From Candidatus Korarchaeum sp. (GTDB taxonomy: Archaea; Korarchaeota; Korarchaeia; Korarchaeales; Korarchaeaceae): a stretch of 10,880 nucleotides of DNA. Both the position numbers and the translations under genes were made by a program. The stretch lies in NCBI GenBank assembly GCA_020833055.1, contig JAJHQZ010000018.1, positions 1-10,880 of the forward strand, read 5' to 3'. The notes under the pieces were generated by a model. The model was given only the letters and a program-made list of their open reading frames with translations, did not search any database and was not told where the DNA came from. Positions 1 through 10,880 of this stretch are shown piece after piece. Position 1 is the first letter of the stretch; the number at the start of each line of letters is the position of its first letter.

Positions 1-106
1 CACAGGATGAGGGGAGCCCCGTTGCCCCTGAAAGCCATCAATGAGGATAGCAGCAGTGCTATCCGAGATGGAACGGGTAGTAAATGTTAACTACCCGACA
101 ACGGAG
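1..106 (+). ncRNA. Partial structured RNA with a kink-turn (family not recognised)
   Basis: No protein is visible here, but the + strand folds well. An outer helix pairs 19-24 (CCGTTG) with 99-104 (CAACGG) and encloses two hairpins. The first has a 5-bp stem 35-39/67-71 (CCATC/GATGG), a 3-nt bulge AAT at 40-42, tandem G-A/A-G pairs (GA 43-44 facing GA 65-66), then a perfect 8-bp stem 45-52/57-64 with loop GCAG. That is the consensus layout of an L7Ae-binding kink-turn. The second is an 8-bp perfect hairpin 74-81/90-97 with an 8-nt loop. GGGG 11-14 could also pair with CCCC 25-28 and form a pseudoknot across the outer helix. The minus strand lacks the G-A pairs, so the + strand is the likely RNA strand. 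Position 1 is probably inside the RNA. I could not match it to RNase P RNA, SRP RNA, rRNA or a known riboswitch from memory. It is convergent with the hydrogenase operon. Confidence 0.45.
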
Positions 107-123
107 TGTTAAGAGGCCTAGGA

Positions 124-684
124 TTAGCATAGTTCATCTATTTTCTTCAAAAAACTACTTATATCAAAATTTATATCCAATTTTCTATCCCTCAATATCT
201 TAGTTATTGAATCGAGCACCCTCGGGAGTGCCACCTTCACCTCGGGGCTGAGCCCCTCCCTTAGATCTATCGAGCTCGGTACTATGCCCACTACGTAAGT
301 CTCCGGTAATCTCCCCATCGCCAGAGCTGCAGCTATTAACACCTCCGCGGTGACCCCATGGCTCCAAGAACTGATCAAATGCTTCAAGAGGATCTCCCTA
401 TCCACGCTAGATCTATCGACTCTGTAGACTCTCACGTCCCCCGGCTCCCCCTCTTCAGGTGAGAGGGAATCGACCACGAACAGTATATCGGAACCCTCTA
501 TCTCCTCCAAGAGCCCTATACCACCGATCCCCCCGTCCACTACCCTCATCCACTCAGGTATATCCATTGAGGAGAGAGCTTCCGCGAAGTAAGAGCCAGC
601 GCCATCGTCCCCTAATAATCTGTTCCCTAATCCTAAAATGAGTACCCTAACTTTACCATGAGATCCCTCAAGGTCCTCAGGCAT
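124..684 (-). CDS. [NiFe] hydrogenase maturation protease (HyaD/HycI family, peptidase A31)
   Basis: This 186-residue protein matches the family of nickel-dependent endopeptidases that clip the C-terminal tail of the hydrogenase large subunit once the NiFe centre is built. It has the N-terminal GLGNRLLGDDGAG motif (residues 18-30), DGG at 50-52, VVDS around D72, SWSHG with H109, and the C-terminal IDLREGLSPEV segment (139-149). D27, D72 and H109 occupy the three nickel-contact positions known from HybD/HycI, with Asp at the first as in HycI. The last ~25 residues extend past the usual fold. The ATG start at 684 overlaps the upstream gene by 52 bases and has a GAGGGAG ribosome site just upstream; no later in-frame start precedes the GLGN motif. 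It is the last gene of the hydrogenase operon, and the large subunit (3428-5194) carries the tail it would cut. Confidence 0.93.
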   Translation of the reverse strand: MPEDLEGSHGKVRVLILGLGNRLLGDDGAGSYFAEALSSMDIPEWMRVVDGGIGGIGLLEEIEGSDILFVVDSLSPEEGEPGDVRVYRVDRSSVDREILLKHLISSWSHGVTAEVLIAAALAMGRLPETYVVGIVPSSIDLREGLSPEVKVALPRVLDSITKILRDRKLDINFDISSFLKKIDELC

Positions 685-1295
685 CCGACTCCCTCAGCTC
701 GAGGCGGGACATTGACGATGTATACTTCGCCCTCAGATAGGGAGGCTATCACTCCCGTCAGTGTGTTTACGTCATTCACACCTAAGAGCGTCAGAGGTAT
801 AGATTCTTTCAATCTCTCGGTATCCCTCTCGACCTCTATTTTCTTTACAGAAGTCCCCTCACCCTGTGAAATTATTATTATGAAGTCCGGATCGTACTCT
901 ATCATTTCAGTTATTGAAGCTAGCGGGTATTGAGTCGTATCGAATAATTCCACGTCACCACCCCTCACTTCACCCACCAGCTCCCTTATCCCCTCGAGGA
1001 CGCTCTCAGGAGGCTGAGGGGAGCTTATCACGATAGCGCATCTCTTCCCTCCCATCCTCACGTACTTTCCGGGCTTCATTAATGCTCTCCTAATAGCTTC
1101 GATCGGATCCTCCCCTCCCAAGGACATAGATAACTCCTTCCTGATCTCATTAATATCCTTCCTATTTATGGGAAAAGAGTATACCAATCTCTCGAGCTCT
1201 ATAGCAGATATTATCGAGTCCTTTATCTCACGCTCTATTTCATTCAGCTCACCGTAGAGAGTCCCGAGGAGCCTCGCGATCTTCTTCAACGACAT
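633..1295 (-). CDS. Hypothetical protein, possible degenerate hydrogenase-protease paralogue
   Basis: I do not recognise this 220-residue protein by a signature motif. Residues 1-75 are charged and helical (possible coiled coil around 10-60). Residues 84-220 look alpha/beta, with strands CAIVISS (86-92), DVELFD (114-119), FIIIIS (138-143) and EVYIVNVPP (190-198). The order and spacing of these elements resemble the maturation protease encoded next door: VELFD..ASITEMIEYDPDFIIIIS parallels VRVVDGG..LLEEIEGSDILFVVDS, and LTLLGVND..GVIASL parallels SWSHGVTAEVLIAAAL. The GLGN motif is absent, and the Asp and His metal ligands align with S143 and about N174, so it would be non-catalytic. It starts 10 bases after isp2 without a clear ribosome site and overlaps the protease gene by 52 bases, so it is firmly in the hydrogenase operon. 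An assembly or chaperone role is inference. Confidence 0.7.
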   Translation of the reverse strand: MSLKKIARLLGTLYGELNEIEREIKDSIISAIELERLVYSFPINRKDINEIRKELSMSLGGEDPIEAIRRALMKPGKYVRMGGKRCAIVISSPQPPESVLEGIRELVGEVRGGDVELFDTTQYPLASITEMIEYDPDFIIIISQGEGTSVKKIEVERDTERLKESIPLTLLGVNDVNTLTGVIASLSEGEVYIVNVPPRAEGVGCLRTLRDLMVKLGYSF

Positions 1296-1305
1296 TTTAA
1301 AAATT

Positions 1306-2631
1306 TTATAGTTTGATCTTATCCAGTAAATAATGTGATATATGGACAGCTCTGAAGGCGCTCCCTGTGAGTTCCGATCCCTTATTCAAGCTGAATATAC
1401 ACGTCGGGCATCCGGTAACGACTACCTCGGCCCCGCTCTGGACGACCTCTCTCGCCTTCTCCCTCATGACTACCTCATAATCCCTCATGAGGTCCCTAGT
1501 GAACTCAGCCTCCCATCCATCCACCTCCCGGCTCAAGCCGAGCAGTCCCCTTAGCTCTCTCAGGTCCTCGCTCAAGAGAGCTATACCGGATCCACCCCCG
1601 CAACAACGACTGAAGACACCCTGGCTCTTGGGTAACTCCCTGTACTCCTTGGAGGAGGCCCTCAGGATCTCCCTAGGTTCCCTCTTGACGCCGCTATTCC
1701 TCAACTTGCATGGATCGTGCCACGCTACCTTTACCTCTCCAGCCTCTATCCTGAACTTCCCAGCTCTATAGAGTTCGTAGAGATATTCAGCTACGTGTAA
1801 GATCTCATAATCCACTTTCTCCCGGATTAAGAATGGCATCTGAAATCTCATCTCCTCGTAAGTAGTTCCCCCATGCGATAAGATCACTTTCTTAGCCCCG
1901 ATCCCCTTAACGTAAGAGTTCACTCTCTCTAAAGCCTTCCTCTCTGACTTCCTATCGCCTATGAAAGATCCTGTACCGAATTCGAAGCCCAGTGGCCTTG
2001 AGGGGAGAGTCCAGTTGATTCCGAGGGCATCTAGGATCTTTGATGTCGATATTATAGTTTCCGGAGTCAATATAGCCTCTATGACTGTCGGTAAGTAGAG
2101 GACCTCGGCCCCCTCCCTATCCAAGGGTAGCTCCTTCCCTACACCTCCTCTCACTCTCCCGATAGTAGAATTCCATAGATCCATCACTCCCTCATGCCCC
2201 GCGATATCCCCGCTTTCTATCTCACTCAAGCGTTTCAGGATCGTCGGGGCCCTCCCCATGCTGCTGAGGAACCCCCTGAGTATCCTTATTAACTCACCGC
2301 TGTAGATACCGAATGGGCATGTGTTCAAACAGTTACCGCAGTTGACGCATCTGTAAGCCATGTAAGTCATCCTCTTGAGGTCATCCTCACCCTTGGGATA
2401 TCCAGCATTAACTATAGATCCTAAGGCATAGCCTACAGCTGTTACCCTCTTCCTCCATATTCTCCTAAGCTCCTCAGCTTTATTCACAGGCTCGTACTCA
2501 GGTCCAGCTGCTATGTACGGGCAGTGAGGCGTGCAGAGGCCGCAAGACACGCAGGACTCGAAGTAATGTAATGTAACTGGATTCAACTCGGAGAGAGTTT
2601 CATTAATAGCTGAATCGAGTTCCCCATTCAT
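1306..2631 (-). CDS. isp2: Isp2: HdrD/DsrK-like iron-sulfur electron-transfer subunit
   Basis: The 441-residue protein starts with two ferredoxin-type [4Fe-4S] motifs: CVSCGLCTPHCPY (C27, C30, C33, C37) and CVNCGNCLNTCPF (C95, C98, C101, C105). A C-terminal CCG domain follows with HDPC (C308), CCGGG (C343, C344) and GCPTC (C408, C411), the five-Cys pattern of the HdrB/HdrD/DsrK non-cubane cluster. An earlier CCG domain can be traced (about 175-260), but its cysteines are gone (YLPTVIE, EFGTG, SHGGTTYEE). There is no signal peptide, so it should sit on the cytoplasmic face, taking electrons from Isp1. I start at the ATG at 2631: it forms a 4-base ATGA overlap with the isp1 stop and has GGAGGAG upstream. 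A GTG at 2646 would add five residues. The Isp2 role follows the Isp-type hydrogenases of Acidianus and Chromatiaceae; the acceptor is unknown. Confidence 0.88.
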   Translation of the reverse strand: MNGELDSAINETLSELNPVTLHYFESCVSCGLCTPHCPYIAAGPEYEPVNKAEELRRIWRKRVTAVGYALGSIVNAGYPKGEDDLKRMTYMAYRCVNCGNCLNTCPFGIYSGELIRILRGFLSSMGRAPTILKRLSEIESGDIAGHEGVMDLWNSTIGRVRGGVGKELPLDREGAEVLYLPTVIEAILTPETIISTSKILDALGINWTLPSRPLGFEFGTGSFIGDRKSERKALERVNSYVKGIGAKKVILSHGGTTYEEMRFQMPFLIREKVDYEILHVAEYLYELYRAGKFRIEAGEVKVAWHDPCKLRNSGVKREPREILRASSKEYRELPKSQGVFSRCCGGGSGIALLSEDLRELRGLLGLSREVDGWEAEFTRDLMRDYEVVMREKAREVVQSGAEVVVTGCPTCIFSLNKGSELTGSAFRAVHISHYLLDKIKL

Positions 2632-3416
2632 AGCCCTCTCCTCCACATATCATAAGCCTCATGGAGCTTCCCGTACCAGTAACTGAAGACGAAATGGAAG
2701 AACTTCGTGAACGGTAGTATCATTACTAATACTTCGCTCGCTAGTATGTGGATGCCCAAGACGTTCTTGTAAGTGTCTATATCGCTAGAGGGTAGATGGT
2801 GCGTGGCCATGTAACCGCTCACTAAGATAACTAGGAGGAGGATCAGAGCAGTGAAATCCCCTATTCTCACCCTGGAGAGATTCTCCTTGAACTTCTTCGG
2901 GAACTTCTCGAGTAGCTTGAATGTAGTGCCTATTATAGCTATTATAGCGAGTACATCTCCGTTCAATACCACTGTCAGGGGTCCCCATATCGTGTTCACG
3001 AAACCCCGGGACATAGTGCTAGTGGGAGTCACGGGCGATGTCACTGTGAGGGCCGAGCTAGTAGCGCTAGTGGGTATAGCTAGGGGCCGGAGTAAGGAGT
3101 AAGGTGGGAAGTAGTAAGACCACCAAGCTATGTGATGCGAGAGTAAGAAGAGGAGCGGGATGACCCCCAGGAAGTGGAGTAGGAATATACCAGTGACGAA
3201 CGTTACCTTAGTCCTCTTGATAGATGCCCATATTGGGAATATGAATGCTCTTATCAGAGCGAGGACTTTGTGAAACAGGGAGGTCTTCCTCCAGACTGGT
3301 TGAGGGGCCCTCTTGAAGAGGAAGATGTATCTAGATATTCTGTAAGCTATCCCGAGTGTGAAAATGAATAATGTTGGTAGGATCATGTTATAAACTGAGA
3401 ACTCATAGATCCCCAT
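2628..3416 (-). CDS. isp1: Isp1: cytochrome b-type membrane subunit (NarI/HdrE/DsrM-like)
   Basis: A 262-residue integral membrane protein with about five hydrophobic segments (roughly 8-27, 72-93, 143-165, 187-204, 218-245). Histidines that could bind b haems lie in or near the helices: H81 (LLHFLG), H94/H95, H206/H207, H223 (GIHIL) and H241 (FFHF). Size, helix count and position next to an HdrD-like gene fit Isp1, the quinone/haem-type membrane partner that carries hydrogenase electrons across the membrane to Isp2. The C-terminus (YWYGKLHEAYDMWRRGL) is basic and probably cytoplasmic. Residues 112-138 between the second and third helices form an unusual Ser/Thr/Pro-rich loop. The start at 3416 is 11 bases after the large-subunit stop and follows GGGGGATCGG. 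The stop overlaps isp2 by four bases, so the two are translationally coupled. Haem ligand assignment is inference. Confidence 0.85.
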   Translation of the reverse strand: MGIYEFSVYNMILPTLFIFTLGIAYRISRYIFLFKRAPQPVWRKTSLFHKVLALIRAFIFPIWASIKRTKVTFVTGIFLLHFLGVIPLLFLLSHHIAWWSYYFPPYSLLRPLAIPTSATSSALTVTSPVTPTSTMSRGFVNTIWGPLTVVLNGDVLAIIAIIGTTFKLLEKFPKKFKENLSRVRIGDFTALILLLVILVSGYMATHHLPSSDIDTYKNVLGIHILASEVLVMILPFTKFFHFVFSYWYGKLHEAYDMWRRGL

Positions 3417-3427
3417 CCCGATCCCCC

Positions 3428-5194
3428 TCAGACAGTAGCTATTGGTGTGAAGAGCTTCTCAATCCTCCTGTTGCCCACGAACATATGCACAGCGCATGCT
3501 ATACATGGATCGAAGCTCCTTATAGCTCTAACTATGTCTAGACCCGTCCATTGATCTGGAGGGAGCTCCTCCGTTATCTCCACTCCCAAGACTGATGCCT
3601 CATACGGCCCTCTGTATCCCCACCTATCCCTCGGGGACAGGTTCGGAGTTGTGGGCGCATGTATCTGGTAATTCTTTATCTTGTAATTCTCCACGACCAT
3701 CCAGTGCCTCACAGAGCCTCTGGGAGCTTCATCGAACCCGAATCCCAAAGAGAACGCTGGCTTCTTCCAAGGCCTTGAGGTCTCCAAGCTACCGGATTTC
3801 GCATGCTCTAGAGCAGCCAATAAGTTGTTCCAAGCTGCTTCCACGTGAAGTGCGAAATTGAATGCCCTAGCCCTCATCCTCTCTATAGTCGTCGATGCCC
3901 TCACCTTCGGTATGTTCCACTCTAAAGTCATCTTATCCCACGTACCTTGGGGCATCTCTAGTACAGCTGTCTGGGGGAGCTCTATCTTCACCTTACCCCC
4001 GTTCTGTATGGCGTGAGCCCACATCCTAGCTATAGGCCCTGCTTCTATCGGGTAGATCTTACCCTTCCAAACGAACCTGACTATAGCGCCCCAGCTGTAC
4101 TTAGAACGCCAATCTTGAGCTTGTGGGCGAGGGATAGTCGTCTTATTCCAGGGGTGATACTTCATAAACTCACTCATCCCCCAGACCAGCTTATTGCCCA
4201 GAGGATCCCTCTCTACTATCAGGCCATCCCACTCATCGTAGAAGGAGGAGTCGACTAGCTCTATGGTCCCTAAATTCATATCAGTCAACTTATCAGTGAC
4301 GAGCTCCCCGTCCAATATCAGACCGGGTTTCATGTACCTCTTCCTGCCAGCATCATCTATGTTCTTGTATATCTCCTCGTAGCTCTCTCCAAGTGAGGAG
4401 TAAGCCTCCGGATCCTCATAGATACCTACGCTGATCAGATTAGGTTTCTCATACGTGATCCCCTGCCTCTCATAACCTATGGAGTTGTAGAAGTTCGCGA
4501 GATCCTCCCATATTGTAGCGATGAATTTCGCCCAAGCGGTCAATTTCGTGAGCCTGTATGAGTACTCTATCAGGGTCTCCTCCGTGACAGTCGCACCTAT
4601 CCCCCCTGGGATCAGTGTCCTGGGATGGGGGTGACTCCCGTAGAACAGCACTCCCATCTGCCTGGCGATCTTCTGCATCTGTAATGCTAAGATGTATATC
4701 TTCCCCTGGAGTGGGTTCAGGGCGTCCATTATATCCCCTATACTGGAGAAACCGTGCACATCCGAGTGCTCTGCTTTAGTCCTCTTGGCTTCACCGTACA
4801 CTGAGGGGGTCAGTCTCGATACTATCACGCCGCTGTAATCGGGGCCAGCTAATATACTCAAGTGAGTCGGATTATCGTATATGTGATCGAGAGCCGCCCA
4901 AGCGAGGTTCCTTATGAGCACTCCGAACGGCTTGGGGACAGCGCCTAACGCCATATCATTCGCTTTAGCGGATGCATTTGCGTGAGATGCTGCGCAGACA
5001 CCGCATACTCTACTGGTTAAATGTATAGCATCGGGAGGCTCCCTCCCCCTGAGGAATACCTCGAAACCTCTGAACATAGCGCCGAAGCTCCAAGCTTCCC
5101 TTATCTTCTTCGTGCTCTCATCAACGATAGCTTTTACCCCCAAGTGACCCTCTATCCTAGTTATAGGATCTATGAAGAGCTCCCTCTCCACCAT
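3428..5194 (-). CDS. hynL: [NiFe] hydrogenase large subunit, group 1
   Basis: This 588-residue protein carries the NiFe active site for H2 activation. The N-terminal motif RVCGVC (R62, C64, C67, followed by H71) and the C-terminal DPCIACAVH (C564, C567, H570) supply the four cysteines that hold Ni and the Fe(CN)2CO unit. The 18 residues after H570 (MFVGNRRIEKLFTPIATV) are the expected tail removed by the maturation protease encoded at 124-684. GAMFRGFEVFLRGR (38-51) and SHPHPRTLIPGG are typical group 1 (membrane uptake) signatures. There is no signal peptide of its own; it would leave the cell by hitch-hiking with the Tat-tagged small subunit. The ATG at 5194 lies 10 bases after the small-subunit stop with a strong GGGGTGAT ribosome site. 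Gene order S-L-isp1-isp2 differs from the Chromatiaceae order in which the isp genes separate S and L. Confidence 0.96.
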   Translation of the reverse strand: MVERELFIDPITRIEGHLGVKAIVDESTKKIREAWSFGAMFRGFEVFLRGREPPDAIHLTSRVCGVCAASHANASAKANDMALGAVPKPFGVLIRNLAWAALDHIYDNPTHLSILAGPDYSGVIVSRLTPSVYGEAKRTKAEHSDVHGFSSIGDIMDALNPLQGKIYILALQMQKIARQMGVLFYGSHPHPRTLIPGGIGATVTEETLIEYSYRLTKLTAWAKFIATIWEDLANFYNSIGYERQGITYEKPNLISVGIYEDPEAYSSLGESYEEIYKNIDDAGRKRYMKPGLILDGELVTDKLTDMNLGTIELVDSSFYDEWDGLIVERDPLGNKLVWGMSEFMKYHPWNKTTIPRPQAQDWRSKYSWGAIVRFVWKGKIYPIEAGPIARMWAHAIQNGGKVKIELPQTAVLEMPQGTWDKMTLEWNIPKVRASTTIERMRARAFNFALHVEAAWNNLLAALEHAKSGSLETSRPWKKPAFSLGFGFDEAPRGSVRHWMVVENYKIKNYQIHAPTTPNLSPRDRWGYRGPYEASVLGVEITEELPPDQWTGLDIVRAIRSFDPCIACAVHMFVGNRRIEKLFTPIATV

Positions 5195-5204
5195 GCATCA
5201 CCCC

Positions 5205-6446
<1,242 letters not shown>

Positions 6447-6479
6447 GAGATCCCGCCCTCTTGAGGGAGACCCTATCGG

Positions 6480-6502
6480 CATATAATAAAAACTTTCTGC
6501 CG
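6480..6502 (-). promoter_or_regulatory. Promoter of the hydrogenase operon (BRE plus TATA)
   Basis: Reading the minus strand, CAGAAAG (BRE-like, purine/A-rich) is followed directly by TTTTTATTATA, a good archaeal TATA box centred near 6487. Transcription should begin about 26 bases downstream, near 6461, giving a leader of roughly 15 bases before the ATG at 6446. This is the only convincing promoter for the six-gene unit. The tight spacing of all downstream genes argues for one transcript. Confidence 0.55.
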
Positions 6503-7071
6503 CGTAAGATCTAGCAATATTTCAAACATGTGTAGATTCCTCTAACTTTTCTTTTTATAGATTTCCCTTAATGTATGAAGATTATCGATATTGTATTGAG
6601 ATAGATGTTTCTTATGTAGCTGCATCGAGCAATAAAAAGGAATAGCCGTCCCCAGCACCCTCCAACACCTCATATGATATTGATCGATTACTTCCATTAT
6701 AAGATTTAATTTTAATGATAAATGTGGGTAGTAGGTATAATGAACAAATTTAATCCATTTATTGCTCAAGTTTTTTAATCAGTGGTTAATAGAGGGCACC
6801 TCCATCTTTTAGTATTTAACATGATAAATTATATTCTTAGGATCCATTGAGTATCAATATAGAAATCAATAAATAAAATGACACCATCTATATTCAGGTA
6901 AATTCCATATATTCTGAATAAAAACTTATATTGAGGATCTCTAACTTCAATTTTATTTGAATTGTCGCATTAACAAAAATTTCCCGGGAGTACGTCATAG
7001 AAGGAAATCTCGCACGACCTCACCCTAGTTAATGATTATACTGCGAATGGTAGACCATGAGTGCGGGTTAC
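6503..7071. other. AT-rich intergenic stretch without a supported gene
   Basis: About 570 bases, clearly richer in A/T than the flanking genes. The only sizeable open frame (6542-6769, minus) begins with TTG, has no ribosome site or recognisable motif and an odd residue mix (many Trp, His, Tyr, Cys), so I do not call it. A small inverted pair, TATTCAG 6891-6897 and CTGAATA 6914-6920, is visible, as is ATGGT..ACCAT near 7047-7058. No tRNA, rRNA or box C/D layout was found. It may be a decayed gene, a regulatory spacer or a footprint of past insertion. Confidence 0.5.
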
Positions 7072-7088
7072 CGTAAGGTTTTTTATGT
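7072..7088 (+). promoter_or_regulatory. Promoter of tatA (BRE plus TATA)
   Basis: CGTAAGG followed by TTTTTTATG forms a BRE/TATA pair with the TATA centred near 7083. Start of transcription is expected near 7109, just before the ribosome site and the ATG at 7121. This placement excludes the upstream in-frame ATG at 7094, which would lie outside the message. Confidence 0.5.
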
Positions 7089-7109
7089 AGCAATTGTTCA
7101 TTGTATCAC

Positions 7110-7116
7110 GAGGGTG
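7110..7116 (+). promoter_or_regulatory. Ribosome binding site that fixes the tatA start
   Basis: GAGGGTG sits 4 bases before the ATG at 7121 and can pair with the archaeal 16S 3' end (ATCACCTCC). Neither the ATG at 7094 nor the one at 7148 has a comparable site. Confidence 0.5.
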
Positions 7117-7120
7117 TCCT

Positions 7121-7444
7121 ATGATAGCCCCTGCTACAGTCAAGCTGATGCAGTTCGGGGGGATCGGTGTCTGGGAGATCTTGCTGATAGTGTTAATAGC
7201 TTTAATCCTCTTCGGCCCCAGGAAATTGCCCGAGTTAGCGAGGGCAATGGGTGAAGCATTGAGAGAGTTCAAGAGGGCGGCTAGCTCTGTGGAGGAGGGT
7301 CAAAAGAGCCCCTCTCAGAGCGAGAGAGTTGAGGGAAAGGTTAGCATCAGGGAGTTGGCTATGAGCTTGGGTATAGATGTATCAGGCAAGACTGATGAAG
7401 AGCTTTTGGAGGAGATAAAATCTAGGGTTAAAAGTAGTGGATGA
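7121..7444 (+). CDS. tatA: Sec-independent protein translocase TatA
   Basis: The 107-residue protein has the TatA hallmarks: a short N-terminal transmembrane helix (about residues 13-30, GGIGVWEILLIVLIALIL), the FGP hinge with basic residues (LFGPRKLPELAR) and an amphipathic helix to about residue 53. A charged linker and a small C-terminal helical segment (SIRELAMSLGIDVSGKTDEE and on) follow. TatA oligomers assemble with TatC to move folded Tat substrates; the hydrogenase small subunit upstream is such a substrate, a sensible functional neighbour although divergently transcribed. The start at 7121 is chosen from the ribosome site and promoter; the 7148 ATG gives a version closer to the usual bacterial N-terminus. 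TatC is not in this window. Confidence 0.92.
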   Translation: MIAPATVKLMQFGGIGVWEILLIVLIALILFGPRKLPELARAMGEALREFKRAASSVEEGQKSPSQSERVEGKVSIRELAMSLGIDVSGKTDEELLEEIKSRVKSSG

Positions 7445-7465
7445 GGATCTATCGGATGATTCTTC

Positions 7466-7480
7466 TGACATCGGATGTCA
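7466..7480. terminator. Small hairpin between convergent genes
   Basis: TGACAT-CGG-ATGTCA makes a 6-bp stem with a 3-base loop between the convergent tatA and ykgJ-like genes and covers the stop codon of the latter. No long T-run follows on either strand, so a terminator role is weakly supported. Confidence 0.2.
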
Positions 7481-7843
7481 CTCATTAATATTGAGCTTTA
7501 GTTCCTCTAATATTTTGAGGATTATTGAGCACTTCTCCTCGAACTCCTCCTCATCTATAGTATCGATCGCTGGGCAAAGGTCATCCAACTCGCATTCATT
7601 AGCTGAGATGTTGAATACGACTGGATAAGCCCTACAGCCTAGGGGCCTATTCTCATATATCTTGCACTTCCCTCCCTCGAGGAAGTAGCACTTCCCATTG
7701 ACGTTCCTCAACCTATAAAAATCACTCTTCTCCGAGAACTCCTCCCTGCTATAACCTAGCGACTCTATCCTCTCGATATCACTCTCCGTCAATATCATCT
7801 CAGTCTCGATGCAACAGATATGACATCCCTCCGGGCAGAGCAT
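7478..7843 (-). CDS. YkgJ-family cysteine cluster protein (putative Zn/Fe-binding)
   Basis: A 121-residue soluble protein with the family signature CPEGCHICC (C3, C7, C10, C11; pattern CxxxCxxCC) and the second conserved block GGKCKIYENRPLGCRAYP (C60, C70), plus C52, C84, C90 and C105. YkgJ/UPF0153 proteins are thought to bind zinc or iron through this cluster; their exact function is not established. The last ~30 residues are acidic and helical. The ATG at 7843 is preferred to the TTG one codon upstream (7846), because the divergent TATA element at 7862-7872 would start transcription at about 7842, giving a leaderless message. It shares a very short promoter region with tldD and is convergent with tatA. 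Confidence 0.85.
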   Translation of the reverse strand: MLCPEGCHICCIETEMILTESDIERIESLGYSREEFSEKSDFYRLRNVNGKCYFLEGGKCKIYENRPLGCRAYPVVFNISANECELDDLCPAIDTIDEEEFEEKCSIILKILEELKLNINE

Positions 7844-7876
7844 CAAGGTTAAAACTTAGGGCCTCTTAAAACTTTT
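7844..7876. promoter_or_regulatory. Compact divergent promoter for ykgJ-like gene and tldD
   Basis: Only 33 bases separate two divergent start codons. The 9-mer TTAAAACTT occurs twice as a direct repeat (7849-7857 and 7866-7874) with GGGCC between. Read rightward, the first TATA-like copy is about 26 bases before the tldD ATG (7877). Read leftward, the second (GTTTTAAGAG) is about 26 bases before the ATG at 7843. Both messages would therefore be leaderless, and two bound TBP/TFB complexes would nearly touch, so expression may be mutually exclusive. Confidence 0.5.
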
Positions 7877-9235
7877 ATGTACTTGGAGAAGGCTCTGAGC
7901 AAGGGGCTCGAATTAGGAGCTGAATTCGTTGAGCTGAGGGAGGAGCGTTCATTGAGCACTATAATAAGGGTAGTTGATGGGGTCATAAGGGAGCTCAGCT
8001 CGGGGGACGAGTTGAGGATAAGTGTGAGGACTCTTTACAATGGAGGGTGGGGCTTCAGCGTCGCTGGATCTGAAGAGGAGCTAGATGATGCACTGAAAGA
8101 ATCCTTCAAGCTCGCTAAACTCTCCTCTAAGTGGTCCTCGAAGTTCGAAGCAGATTGGCCATCCTTCAAGGGGAGTTACGAAGTCCTGGGGAAGGAACCA
8201 GCATGGGAGGTCCCATTGGAGAGGAAGATAAGCATTTTAATAGATCAGCATAAGATCGCTAGCTCTATAAGAGGTGTGAAGAATACTAACATCCACTTAT
8301 TAGATTCTTTGAGGGAAACGAGGGTCATGAATTCCCTGGGGACGGACACTAGGCAGAGGATATCGAGGGTGAGGATCTCCTCCTACATATTCGCCCACGA
8401 GTCCGGGGTCACTGAAGCCGCTTTCGAATCCGAGGGGGGATTGGGTGGAATTGAGATAATAGAGGGAGCTGATGTAGCTGAGAGAGCTGCTAAGAGGGCT
8501 GTAGAAGCCCTATCCGCAGTACCGGCGCCTCCAGGGAAGCACAGAGCTATCCTGGATCCTAAGTTAGCTGGTGTATTCATACACGAGGCATTCGGTCACG
8601 CTGCTGAGGGGGATGCAGTGCTCAACAATGAGAGCATACTCACAGATATGATGGGAAAGCGGGTGGGCGCGCCCTCCGTTAGCGTAGTAGATGACCCCAC
8701 TATAGAGGGGCTCTACGGGAGCTATAAGTACGATGACGAGGGGACCGAGGCCAGGAGGAAGTACATAGTGAAGGGAGGCATCCTCTCGGGATATCTGACG
8801 AACCTAGAGGTATCTAAGAAGCTGGGGGTTGAGCCCACGGGTAATGCGAGGTCAATGGATTTCGGAAACCCGCCTGAAGTCAGGATGTCCAATACTTTCA
8901 TAGAACCTGGGGACTGGAGCTTCGAGGAGATGTTATCTGAGATTAAGGAGGGGATTTACGCTATAGGGTCCCTCTATGGATATACAGATCCCGCTAAGGG
9001 CCAGTTCATGTTCAAAGCTGAGGGGGGTTGGTTGATAGAGAGGGGGGAACTCAAGAGGAGGCTGAGGGAAGTGGCTATCACTGGTATGACCCTGGAGGTC
9101 CTGCACGATATCGAAGCTATCGGGAAGGAGCTCTCCTATGACCCAGGGAGCTGCGGGAAGAAGAATCAATTCGTGCCTGTGACCACTGGCTCCCCTCACA
9201 TAATGGTGAGGAGTATCGTATTCGGAGGGAGGTGA
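7877..9235 (+). CDS. tldD: TldD family metalloprotease
   Basis: The 452-residue protein is the catalytic half of the TldD/TldE heterodimer, a cytoplasmic Zn protease that degrades unfolded peptides and, in bacteria, matures microcin B17 and acts on CcdA. The zinc site is intact: HEAFGH (H236, E237, H241) within HEAFGHAAEGD, and a conserved GSCGK with C426 at the position of the third ligand in E. coli TldD. Length is close to the family norm (about 450-480). The start ATG at 7877 lies directly at the predicted transcript start, suggesting a leaderless message. The stop codon lies within the ribosome site of pmbA four bases before the next ATG, so the two subunits are made together. Confidence 0.95.
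   Translation: MYLEKALSKGLELGAEFVELREERSLSTIIRVVDGVIRELSSGDELRISVRTLYNGGWGFSVAGSEEELDDALKESFKLAKLSSKWSSKFEADWPSFKGSYEVLGKEPAWEVPLERKISILIDQHKIASSIRGVKNTNIHLLDSLRETRVMNSLGTDTRQRISRVRISSYIFAHESGVTEAAFESEGGLGGIEIIEGADVAERAAKRAVEALSAVPAPPGKHRAILDPKLAGVFIHEAFGHAAEGDAVLNNESILTDMMGKRVGAPSVSVVDDPTIEGLYGSYKYDDEGTEARRKYIVKGGILSGYLTNLEVSKKLGVEPTGNARSMDFGNPPEVRMSNTFIEPGDWSFEEMLSEIKEGIYAIGSLYGYTDPAKGQFMFKAEGGWLIERGELKRRLREVAITGMTLEVLHDIEAIGKELSYDPGSCGKKNQFVPVTTGSPHIMVRSIVFGGR
9228..9235 (+). promoter_or_regulatory. Perfect Shine-Dalgarno for pmbA, overlapping the tldD stop
   Basis: GGAGGTGA is a full match to the archaeal anti-SD sequence and contains the tldD TGA stop. It lies 4 bases before the ATG at 9240, which points to termination-reinitiation coupling and equal subunit synthesis. 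Confidence 0.7.
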
Positions 9236-9239
9236 CCTC

Positions 9240-10559
9240 ATGTTAGTGGAGGAAGCTGTCAAGTCGGCTATGAGGAGCGGAGCTGATGAAGCTGAGGGGT
9301 TCGAGATAAGCGTGAGGAGGATATCCCTGAGCGTTGAGAAGGGAGTATTGAAGACAGCCAGCAGCATTAGGGAAACTGGGCTCGGAGTTATAGCTGTAAT
9401 AGGTAAGAAGCTGGGTATAGCTTTCGCGACGAATCCTATAGATGGGCAGTCCGTCGGGAAGAGAGCTTATATCAATGCAAAAGCTTCCCCAGAGGATCCA
9501 GACTTCCAATCTCTCCCGGACCCCCGTGAAGTGGAGTTAATGGACTGCGTCATGGATCCGAGGATAAGGGACGCTGAGGTAGATGATGCCTCATCTCTCT
9601 TCATGGAGTCGATAGATGCAGCTAAGGTATCTCGGAGCATAGTCTCAGTATCCGGTATCTTCGACCTGATCTACAGCGAGGTATCGATATTCAGCTCCAG
9701 GGGAGTCGATGCTAGGGAGGGGAGGACCTCTTATCACGTATTCCTAGAGGTATCAGCGAAGGACGGGGATAGGAGGGGATCTGGATTCAATTTCTCGGAT
9801 GGTAGGGAGCTGGATTCTTTGGATCCAAGGAGACTGGGGGAGGAGGCTGGGGAGATAGCCCTGATGAGCTTGGATTCCACTAGGATAGGTGTCGAGGAGC
9901 TACCAGTTATATTCAAACCCAAGTCCCTATACGCGATAATCCCCTTCATAGTAGATCAAGCGGCTAATGCTGAGAACTTACACTACGGGAGGAGCTTCCT
10001 CACTGGGAGGCTCTCCACTCAAGTCGCTAGGGAGGGGGTGAGCCTGATAGACGATGGTAGGATCCCCTGGCTCATAGGCAGCTCTAGTTTCGATGATGAG
10101 GGGATCCCCAAGGGGAGGACTGTCGTTATCGATAAAGGAGTATTCAAGAGCCCGATATACAATTGGTACGCTGCTAAGAGGGAGGGTAGGGAGAGCACTG
10201 GGAACGCCTCTAGGGATTACAGGAGGGCGCCATCTATATCTGCTAATAACGTCCTCTTGCAAGCCCCGGGATTGGAGATGAGTGAGGATGAGCTCATCGA
10301 TGTCAATAGGGGCATATTAGTGTTGTACACATGGGATACCCCGAACTTAGCTACTGGTGAGTTCAGTGGTATGGCTGAGACAGCTTTCCTCATAGAGAGA
10401 GGGGAGATAAAGAAGTCCCTCAGGCAGACTGGGATAGCCTTCACTATAGAAGGGGCTCTGAAGGGGCTGGAGGGTGTCGGTAAGGAAGTAGAGCCCGCGG
10501 GCCGATATTACGGGGGATCTATCAGGATAAGGGCCAGGGTCTCTGGACCGGGACTTTAA
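9240..10559 (+). CDS. pmbA: PmbA/TldE family protein, non-catalytic partner of TldD
   Basis: A 439-residue homologue of TldD lacking the HExxxH zinc motif: the equivalent region (about 236-262, IVDQAANAENLHYGRSFLTG) has no such pair, as is normal for TldE/PmbA. Family landmarks are the N-terminal SVEKGVLKTASSIRETGLG (31-49), SSFDDEGIPKGRTVVIDKG (282-300), the STGNASRDY segment (319-327) and the C-terminal GEFSGMAETAFLIERGEI. It forms the heterodimer with TldD and helps gate the protease channel. The last codons and the TAA stop overlap a degenerate inverted CRISPR-like repeat starting at 10554. T-rich CTCTTTT at 10563-10569 may end the transcript. Confidence 0.94.
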   Translation: MLVEEAVKSAMRSGADEAEGFEISVRRISLSVEKGVLKTASSIRETGLGVIAVIGKKLGIAFATNPIDGQSVGKRAYINAKASPEDPDFQSLPDPREVELMDCVMDPRIRDAEVDDASSLFMESIDAAKVSRSIVSVSGIFDLIYSEVSIFSSRGVDAREGRTSYHVFLEVSAKDGDRRGSGFNFSDGRELDSLDPRRLGEEAGEIALMSLDSTRIGVEELPVIFKPKSLYAIIPFIVDQAANAENLHYGRSFLTGRLSTQVAREGVSLIDDGRIPWLIGSSSFDDEGIPKGRTVVIDKGVFKSPIYNWYAAKREGRESTGNASRDYRRAPSISANNVLLQAPGLEMSEDELIDVNRGILVLYTWDTPNLATGEFSGMAETAFLIERGEIKKSLRQTGIAFTIEGALKGLEGVGKEVEPAGRYYGGSIRIRARVSGPGL

Positions 10560-10621
10560 ATCCTCTTTTCATCGGACATACATTAAGGCTCACGACCCCC
10601 ATCCGACCTCTCCCACTGACC
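10554..10621 (-). repeat. Inverted degenerate copy of the right-edge repeat and its upstream sequence
   Basis: Positions 10554-10596 match the reverse complement of 10837-10880 at 40 of 44 aligned columns (three mismatches, one gap). The similarity fades out over 10597-10621 against 10812-10836, with about 15 of 24 positions equal and mostly transitions. It includes CTTTAAATCCTCTTTTCATC, a decayed form of the repeat, and GGCTCACGAC. The part corresponding to the right-hand TATA box (GGTTAAATAGG) reads GGTCGGATGGG here, so its promoter is lost. There is no second copy further left; the pmbA coding sequence begins immediately. Confidence 0.8.
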
Positions 10622-10709
10622 TCCTCCCCGCCCTTCAGGTTTCATCAGTTCCCCGCACCTATTCTGGTTTACAACTGAGAGCCTCGCCATTTATGGCGGG
10701 GAGGGGTCA
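10617..10709. repeat. IS200/IS605-like palindromic end motifs
   Basis: TGACCTCCTCCCCGCC (10617-10632) is an imperfect inverted partner of GGCGGGGAGGGGTCA (10695-10709). The latter is the 3' arm of a stable hairpin 10682-10701 (CCTCGCCA/TGGCGGGG, one G-T pair). A GGCGGGGAGGAGGTCA-like sequence after such a hairpin resembles, from memory, the right ends of archaeal IS200/IS605 (tnpB/omega-RNA) elements and palindrome-associated relics. No transposase gene is present. A further small hairpin, GCCTC-CCATC-GAGGC, lies at 10724-10738. Confidence 0.4.
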
Positions 10710-10790
10710 GAGCTCCATCCCATGCCTCCCATCGAGGCACGGGCATCCCTCTGTGGAACATCCCGAAGGACATTCAGGCTCTCAATATAA
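10620..10790 (+). pseudogene. Possible remnant of a TnpB C-terminus
   Basis: A frame open from 10620 to TAA at 10788-10790 reads through the GC-rich hairpin (SLAIYGGEGSELHP) and ends with MPPIEARASLCG followed by TSRRTFRLSI. Archaeal tnpB genes often run through the terminal hairpin in this way. It has no start with a ribosome site and is only 56 codons, so it is either a relic or chance. Confidence 0.2.
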
Positions 10791-10855
10791 TGCTTTAATA
10801 ATGCTCGGAGGGGTTTGTGGAAAAGGTTAAATAGGTGTCGTGAGCCGTAATATAT
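10740..10855 (+). promoter_or_regulatory. Putative CRISPR leader with BRE/TATA
   Basis: The sequence becomes more AT-rich toward the right (ATATAATGCTTTAATAATGC at about 10785). It then shows AAAAGG followed by TTAAATAG, a BRE/TATA element at about 10821-10833. Transcription would begin near 10856, at the start of the repeat-like sequence. GTGTCGTGAGCC (10835-10846) is conserved in the inverted copy, which suggests a functional leader element, for example for integration. The left limit of the leader is arbitrary. Confidence 0.4.
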
Positions 10856-10880
10856 GTCTCGATGAAAAGAGGATTGAAAG
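10856..10880 (+). CRISPR. CRISPR-like repeat at the window edge (array would lie beyond)
   Basis: The last ~25 bases end in GATGAAAAGAGGATTGAAAG, with the ATTGAAAG 3' end that becomes the 5' handle of crRNAs in many crenarchaeal arrays. Only one copy is visible because the window stops at its last base. The 5' limit of the repeat is a guess. No cas gene is in the window. Confidence 0.5.

Follow-up and report, generated by a model that had tools for sequence, protein, structure and literature searches.

In the Sulfolobales, divergent pairs of CRISPR arrays flank type I-A cas operons. In the Thermotogales, CRISPR sequence has reportedly been linked to large inversions between close relatives, in cases that are said to involve whole arrays. 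The work on this order, DeBoy et al. 2006 (J Bacteriol 188:2364), is cited in PMC5637354 and PMC5052741. Archaeal inversions with defined breakpoints are also described in Thermococcus, where they measure about 100-140 kb, lie at tRNA gene pairs and were attributed to a tyrosine recombinase (PMC5495485). The inversion of ~193 kb described here, in a Candidatus Korarchaeum genome, is likewise archaeal and has defined breakpoints but, unlike those of Thermococcus, it has no tRNA gene on its pmbA side, and the tRNA gene on the contig that forms its other side (C1) lies 0.7 kb from the junction. The difference from the Thermotogales is that single inverted leader-repeat units, instead of whole arrays, stand at one breakpoint and none was detected at the other.

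The stretch of DNA analysed, hereafter the window, is contig C18 (positions 1-10880; 10,880 nucleotides) of an assembly of 1.39 Mb in 25 contigs (G000). Its right edge is the contig end, and its last 127 bases are C1:1-127, so that the sequence can be traced onward on C1. A repeat search of the window returned two pairs of inverted arms, 10575-10621 with 10812-10858 (47 nt, 77%) and 10554-10574 with 10860-10880 (21 nt, 95%), which are one base out of register and combine into a single gapped alignment. In this alignment 10554-10621 is an inverted copy of the leader and repeat at 10806-10880, the whole forming a 327-bp unit with inverted ends of ~74 bp at 81% identity. Counted from the alignment, 40 of 44 columns are identical from GTCGTGAGCC to the end of the repeat and 21 of 31 farther out, as anticipated by a first-pass annotation made from the sequence, which had described an inverted copy at the end of pmbA matching at 40 of 44 columns with a decaying extension. 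The same annotation had held that the pair is no product of chance and that the homology takes in upstream DNA as well as the repeat. Both claims stand: the local score of the inverted match is 76 against a maximum of 28 across 2000 dinucleotide shuffles, and the leaders without their repeats score 36 against a shuffle maximum of 31. A whole-genome BLAST search recovered the same inverted match (E ~6e-12), and an Rfam search of the window gave no match. The features of the locus are collected in Table 1.

Table 1. Features at the right end of the window.
Feature	Position	Strand	Basis or remark
pmbA/TldE-like gene	9240..10559	+	Pfam PmbA_TldD domains
Left (inverted) CRISPR repeat copy	10554..10577	-	24 nt; repeat search and alignment
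Left leader remnant	10578..10621	-	repeat search and alignment
IS200/IS605-like end or MITE debris	10613..10712	-	overlaps outer edge of left leader
Dispersed non-coding sequence	10715..10788	.	also at C8:3793-3869 and G010:845553-845632; 77-80% identity
Right leader	10806..10855	+	leader alignment
Right CRISPR repeat GTCTCGATGAAAAGAGGATTGAAAG	10856..10880	+	perfect 25/25; contig end; continues on C1:128

The sequence at the right edge that had been called CRISPR-like belongs to a repeat family with true arrays. Exact copies of GTCTCGATGAAAAGAGGATTGAAAG number 16 in the assembly, a figure that includes the one shared by C18 and C1 twice, and one further copy has a single mismatch. The repeat forms arrays with a period of 61-64 nt on C4 (11 repeats, the leader side being cut off by the contig start) and on C10 (3 repeats). 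A solo leader-repeat unit with no array lies at C4:14139. In G010, the closest complete relative, which belongs to the same genus and consists of one contig of 1,590,757 bp, the same repeat makes up a large array, from which 119 spacers were extracted, and an array of three repeats. Their leaders stand back to back around a type I-A operon with cas1, csa1, cas4, csa3, csa2 and further genes, and the two flanking leaders are 96% identical to each other. When the leaders were aligned, a check that the first-pass annotation had proposed, the right unit of the window proved to be a genuine leader: over 59-61 columns, leader and repeat share 86-89% identity with the solo leader on C4 and with two of the leaders in G010, and 80% with the third one there. 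The TATA-containing region noticed upstream of the right repeat corresponds to an intact BRE/TATA-like GTGGAAAAGGTTAAATAGG at 10817-10835, and GTCGTGAGCC follows at 10837-10846. The right unit thus has the repeat of true arrays and a homologous leader with a promoter, which identifies it as a CRISPR leader and repeat. This unit may still be transcribed, but the assembly shows no Cas1 that might extend it.

The left unit is 73-78% identical to the C4 solo leader, the G010 leaders and the right unit. Its repeat differs from the right one by one deleted base and one substitution, C-to-A at 10558. The left leader retains a GGCTCACGAC block at 10587-10596, and on the leader strand the sequence at 10597-10615 is TGGGAGAGGTCGGATGGGG, without the BRE/TATA; since TGGGAGAGGTCGGATGGG stands at the promoter position, the promoter is gone. 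The alignment therefore bears out the proposal of back-to-back leaders of which one, the left, has lost its promoter and array. With 14 nt less than the array leaders, both window leaders are of a short form, and both carry the GTCGTGAGCC block.

Most of the 190 bases that separate the arms are IS200/IS605-like debris, the family name being taken, by inspection, from a tnpA/tnpB pair on C3. Positions 10613-10634 match the 3' end of tnpB at C3:49805 exactly over 22 nt, 10638-10676 match C1:26992 at 87%, and the hairpin CCTCGCCATTTATGGCGGGG lies within the same debris. Because the tnpB match partly overlaps a segment that is also found in one G010 leader (GGGGAGGGGGTCAGTGG), the border of the debris is imprecise. 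The dispersed copies that match 10638-10676 and the non-coding sequence at 10715-10788 adjoin hairpins typical of IS200/IS605-type ends.

In relatives, the pmbA product ends in SGPG, with the stop directly after it, and guaA follows immediately. The two genes directly adjoin in 13 relatives, and in a 14th (G002) ~700 bp lie between them; the rearrangement therefore arose on the lineage studied here. In the window the last codon of pmbA and its TAA stop (10557-10559) fall inside the left CRISPR repeat. The boundary between gene and repeat is exact: GGACCGGGA is followed in G010 by TGAATATG and here by CTTT, the sequence after GGACCGGGA being CTTTAAATCC, the end of the left repeat. The natural pmbA stop is lost at the join; the C-to-A change in the left repeat gives pmbA its TAA after one extra codon, and without this change the frame would go on for nine more codons. 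Neither protein nor DNA searches found guaA in the assembly, except for ~32 bases of its 3' end.

To the right of the window, C1 continues after the perfect repeat with TGAGTAGTGCACC and has one decayed repeat (19/25) 65 nt on. Farther right lie a second array with a different repeat (GAATCCCGGAAAGGGAGTTGAAAG), a tRNA gene and rRNA genes. The first-pass annotation had expected regularly spaced copies in this direction; C1 has no such copies of the same repeat, and the right unit does not head a CRISPR array there. From C1:131 onward the sequence is homologous to G010 from 1332.5 kb downward, a stretch made up in G010 of a palindrome and a degenerate leader-repeat of the short form. Since G010 shares this stretch, it is shared chromosomal sequence and not a newly acquired spacer. 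That contig C18 stops exactly at the end of the repeat implies branching of the assembly graph at this point, and some cells may therefore carry an array there. Of note for the second array, one spacer of the main G010 array (G010 C1:447994-448031; L060) includes the whole 24-nt repeat of the second type (GAATCCCGGAAAGGGAGTTGAAAG, reverse strand), and thus matches the cell's own second array across that repeat.

The orientation of this region was read by aligning both ends of C1:1-193,000, which is inverted relative to G010. C1:238-1000 matches G010 1332.4-1331.7 kb and C1:184000-192955 matches G010 1149.6-1140.9 kb, both on the minus strand, and C1 from 194,636 on is collinear on the plus strand with G010 from 1335.5 kb. 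The join of C18 to C1 is predicted independently by the reciprocal junction, which lies inside C1. With the end of pmbA in the left repeat and an inverted C1:1-193,000, the leader-repeat pair lies exactly on the breakpoint, where it links the pmbA end to an rRNA-proximal locus that in G010 is 193 kb away in the opposite orientation. The outer borders of the pair coincide with repeat 3' ends, to 0 and 3 nt. Both reciprocal junctions are present and the relatives keep the ancestral order, as befits an inversion breakpoint. At the reciprocal breakpoint (C1:192955-194636) no CRISPR remnant was found above chance, the score of 22 being matched by 31 of 200 shuffles, and homologous recombination between CRISPR sequences is therefore not demonstrated. 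A candidate remnant upstream of the G010 palindrome was rejected (score 24, matched by 12 of 200 shuffles).

We conclude that the pair is probably a fossil of two back-to-back leader and first-repeat units of the genus's type I-A family, lying on the breakpoint of the ~193-kb inversion. The pair would formerly have headed two divergent arrays or, alternatively, would have arisen as an inverted duplication of the leader-repeat that the rRNA-side locus already had. The arrays would have shrunk to single repeats through recombination between repeats, the repeat-rich site would have been the substrate where the inversion was joined, and IS200/IS605-type insertions would later have occupied the space between the leaders. 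We counted in favour of a fossil the persistence of solo leader-repeat units at conserved positions (C4:14139, equivalent to G010:419921), and that G010 has a short-form leader-repeat at the C1-side breakpoint as well as back-to-back leaders at its cas operon. The solo locus, like the window units, has a leader and one repeat with no array, but it is not inverted, lies off this breakpoint and has the long form of the leader. The divergent array pair of G010 resembles the window in its closely related back-to-back leaders and its 24-25-nt repeats ending in ATTGAAAG; unlike it, the window pair has no cas genes or arrays between its leaders or beyond them, one of its leaders is dead and 190 bp of IS-like debris separate them. 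No intermediate genome was found for the origin of the inverted copy.

Two more specific versions of this explanation can be put forward tentatively. In one, the pair may be the relic of a complete CRISPR-cas locus with divergent arrays, from which the cas operon between the leaders was deleted while the arrays were reduced to one repeat each and IS debris was left behind. The leaders of G010 do face apart around such an operon and those of the window are arranged likewise, 190 bp replacing the 10 kb, but no cas fragment was recognised in these 190 bp, and the window leaders have the short form of the rRNA-side locus of G010, which is without evident cas genes in the stretch read. In the other, also no more than a possible course of events, a template switch or fold-back repair during the inversion would have copied the rRNA-side leader-repeat onto the pmbA end. 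This would suit the short length and the GTCGTGAGCC block of both copies, features that the array leaders lack, the occurrence of the pair only at the inversion junction and the palindrome (GCACCACAAATTTGTGGTGC in G010) at the right border. It sits badly with the left copy, whose divergence from all the other units far exceeds that of the right copy, so that it must be old or under no constraint.

The first-pass annotation had also suggested that the adaptation machinery made the inversion or duplication. Cas1 (PF01867) was not found in this assembly, and the 10.4-kb cas region of G010 has no DNA match here beyond leader and repeat. As neither Cas1 nor the type I-A operon of G010 was detected, a role of this machinery is unsupported, and the locus is not recognisable as an active CRISPR-Cas locus in an assembly that may have gaps; one such gap is at C4:1, where G010 has cas1, so that the absence of Cas1 is not beyond doubt. 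We consider it unlikely that Cas1-Cas2 made the joins, tying chromosomal ends to leader-repeat units by cleavage and ligation at repeat borders. The joins of pmbA to repeat and of repeat to palindrome do lie within 0-3 nt of repeat borders, as do those of the G010 array trailer relative to C4:2441 and of the C10 repeat to a dispersed element, but array collapse also yields borders at repeat ends, there is no target-site duplication at the junction and no Cas1 was found in the assembly. That the 327-bp unit is a small transposable element whose terminal inverted repeats are the leader-repeat copies is hardly credible, as a second inverted pair was not found among 61 genomes and the unit is thus not a transposon family (recurrence at many loci was the outcome named beforehand as pointing to transposon ends), the flanks (CCGGGA versus TGAGTA) form no target-site duplication and the leader at the right end is of the ordinary CRISPR kind common to true arrays.

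Several other CRISPR-related loci were observed in the two genomes. The solo unit at C4:14139-14226 equals G010 C1:419921-420008, a conserved leader and single repeat with no array, and the stretch around it is ~97% identical between the genomes, against ~81-86% in the other regions compared, a level of similarity that suggests recent exchange. At C4:2441, compared with G010 C1:433485, homology stops exactly at the 3' end of the terminal array repeat of G010, past which G000 carries different genes and lacks a cas operon. The three-repeat array at C10:13038-13222 (L092) is without the usual leader, and half of a dispersed element of ~230 bp, with a TATA-like motif (TTTATAAA), is joined precisely to its first repeat, where the element looks as if it were a replacement leader. 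Copies of this element, which contains the palindrome GGGTAGTAAATGTTAACTACCC, occur on C3, C4, C7, C9, C10, C11 and C1, and window 1-105, at the left end, lies within one copy. In G010 a CRISPR repeat of 25 nt, perfect but solitary and leaderless (G010 C1:1340817-1340841; L090:14818-14842), adjoins a tRNA gene; homology between the genomes restarts directly at its 5' end, with ~600 bp in G000 versus ~50 in G010. None of the spacers proved a convincing case of self-targeting at pmbA, guaA or the junction. The repeat and leader patterns had no match in a viral contig collection, nor the leader pattern in a genome contig collection, from both of which scans near relatives may be missing. The sole match of the repeat pattern in the genome collection was a contig binned as Thermotogaceae (JAMOOR010000082.1; L125), which is possibly mis-binned. 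It has an array of 26 repeats at its end, and the repeat has CTCGATGAAAAGAGGATTGAAAG in common with this genus.

As CRISPR arrays at inversion borders were known before, we regard this locus as a clean new example and not as a new kind of system; its base-level anatomy is new to us, but of the Thermotogales kind. Both reciprocal junctions of the inversion are known, one side is resolved to the base, and the join falls exactly on the ends of CRISPR repeats; a metabolic gene was lost there, and a mutation in the repeat rescued a stop codon. Reports that tie CRISPR loci to inversions are few, and this one extends them with a case from the archaea. A broader reading, which we hold to be very unlikely, is that in this genus chromosomes actually break and rejoin at repeat borders, through action of the Cas1-Cas2 integrase at leader-repeat units; errors of spacer acquisition would then drive inversions and gene loss (here of guaA). 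If true, its traces would be the exact joins at repeat edges at pmbA, at the rRNA-side locus and at the G010 trailer at C4:2441, and further those between the C10 repeat and the dispersed element and at the lone G010 repeat beside the tRNA gene. The locus raises the question of whether repeat borders hold more breakpoints of synteny than chance would place there.
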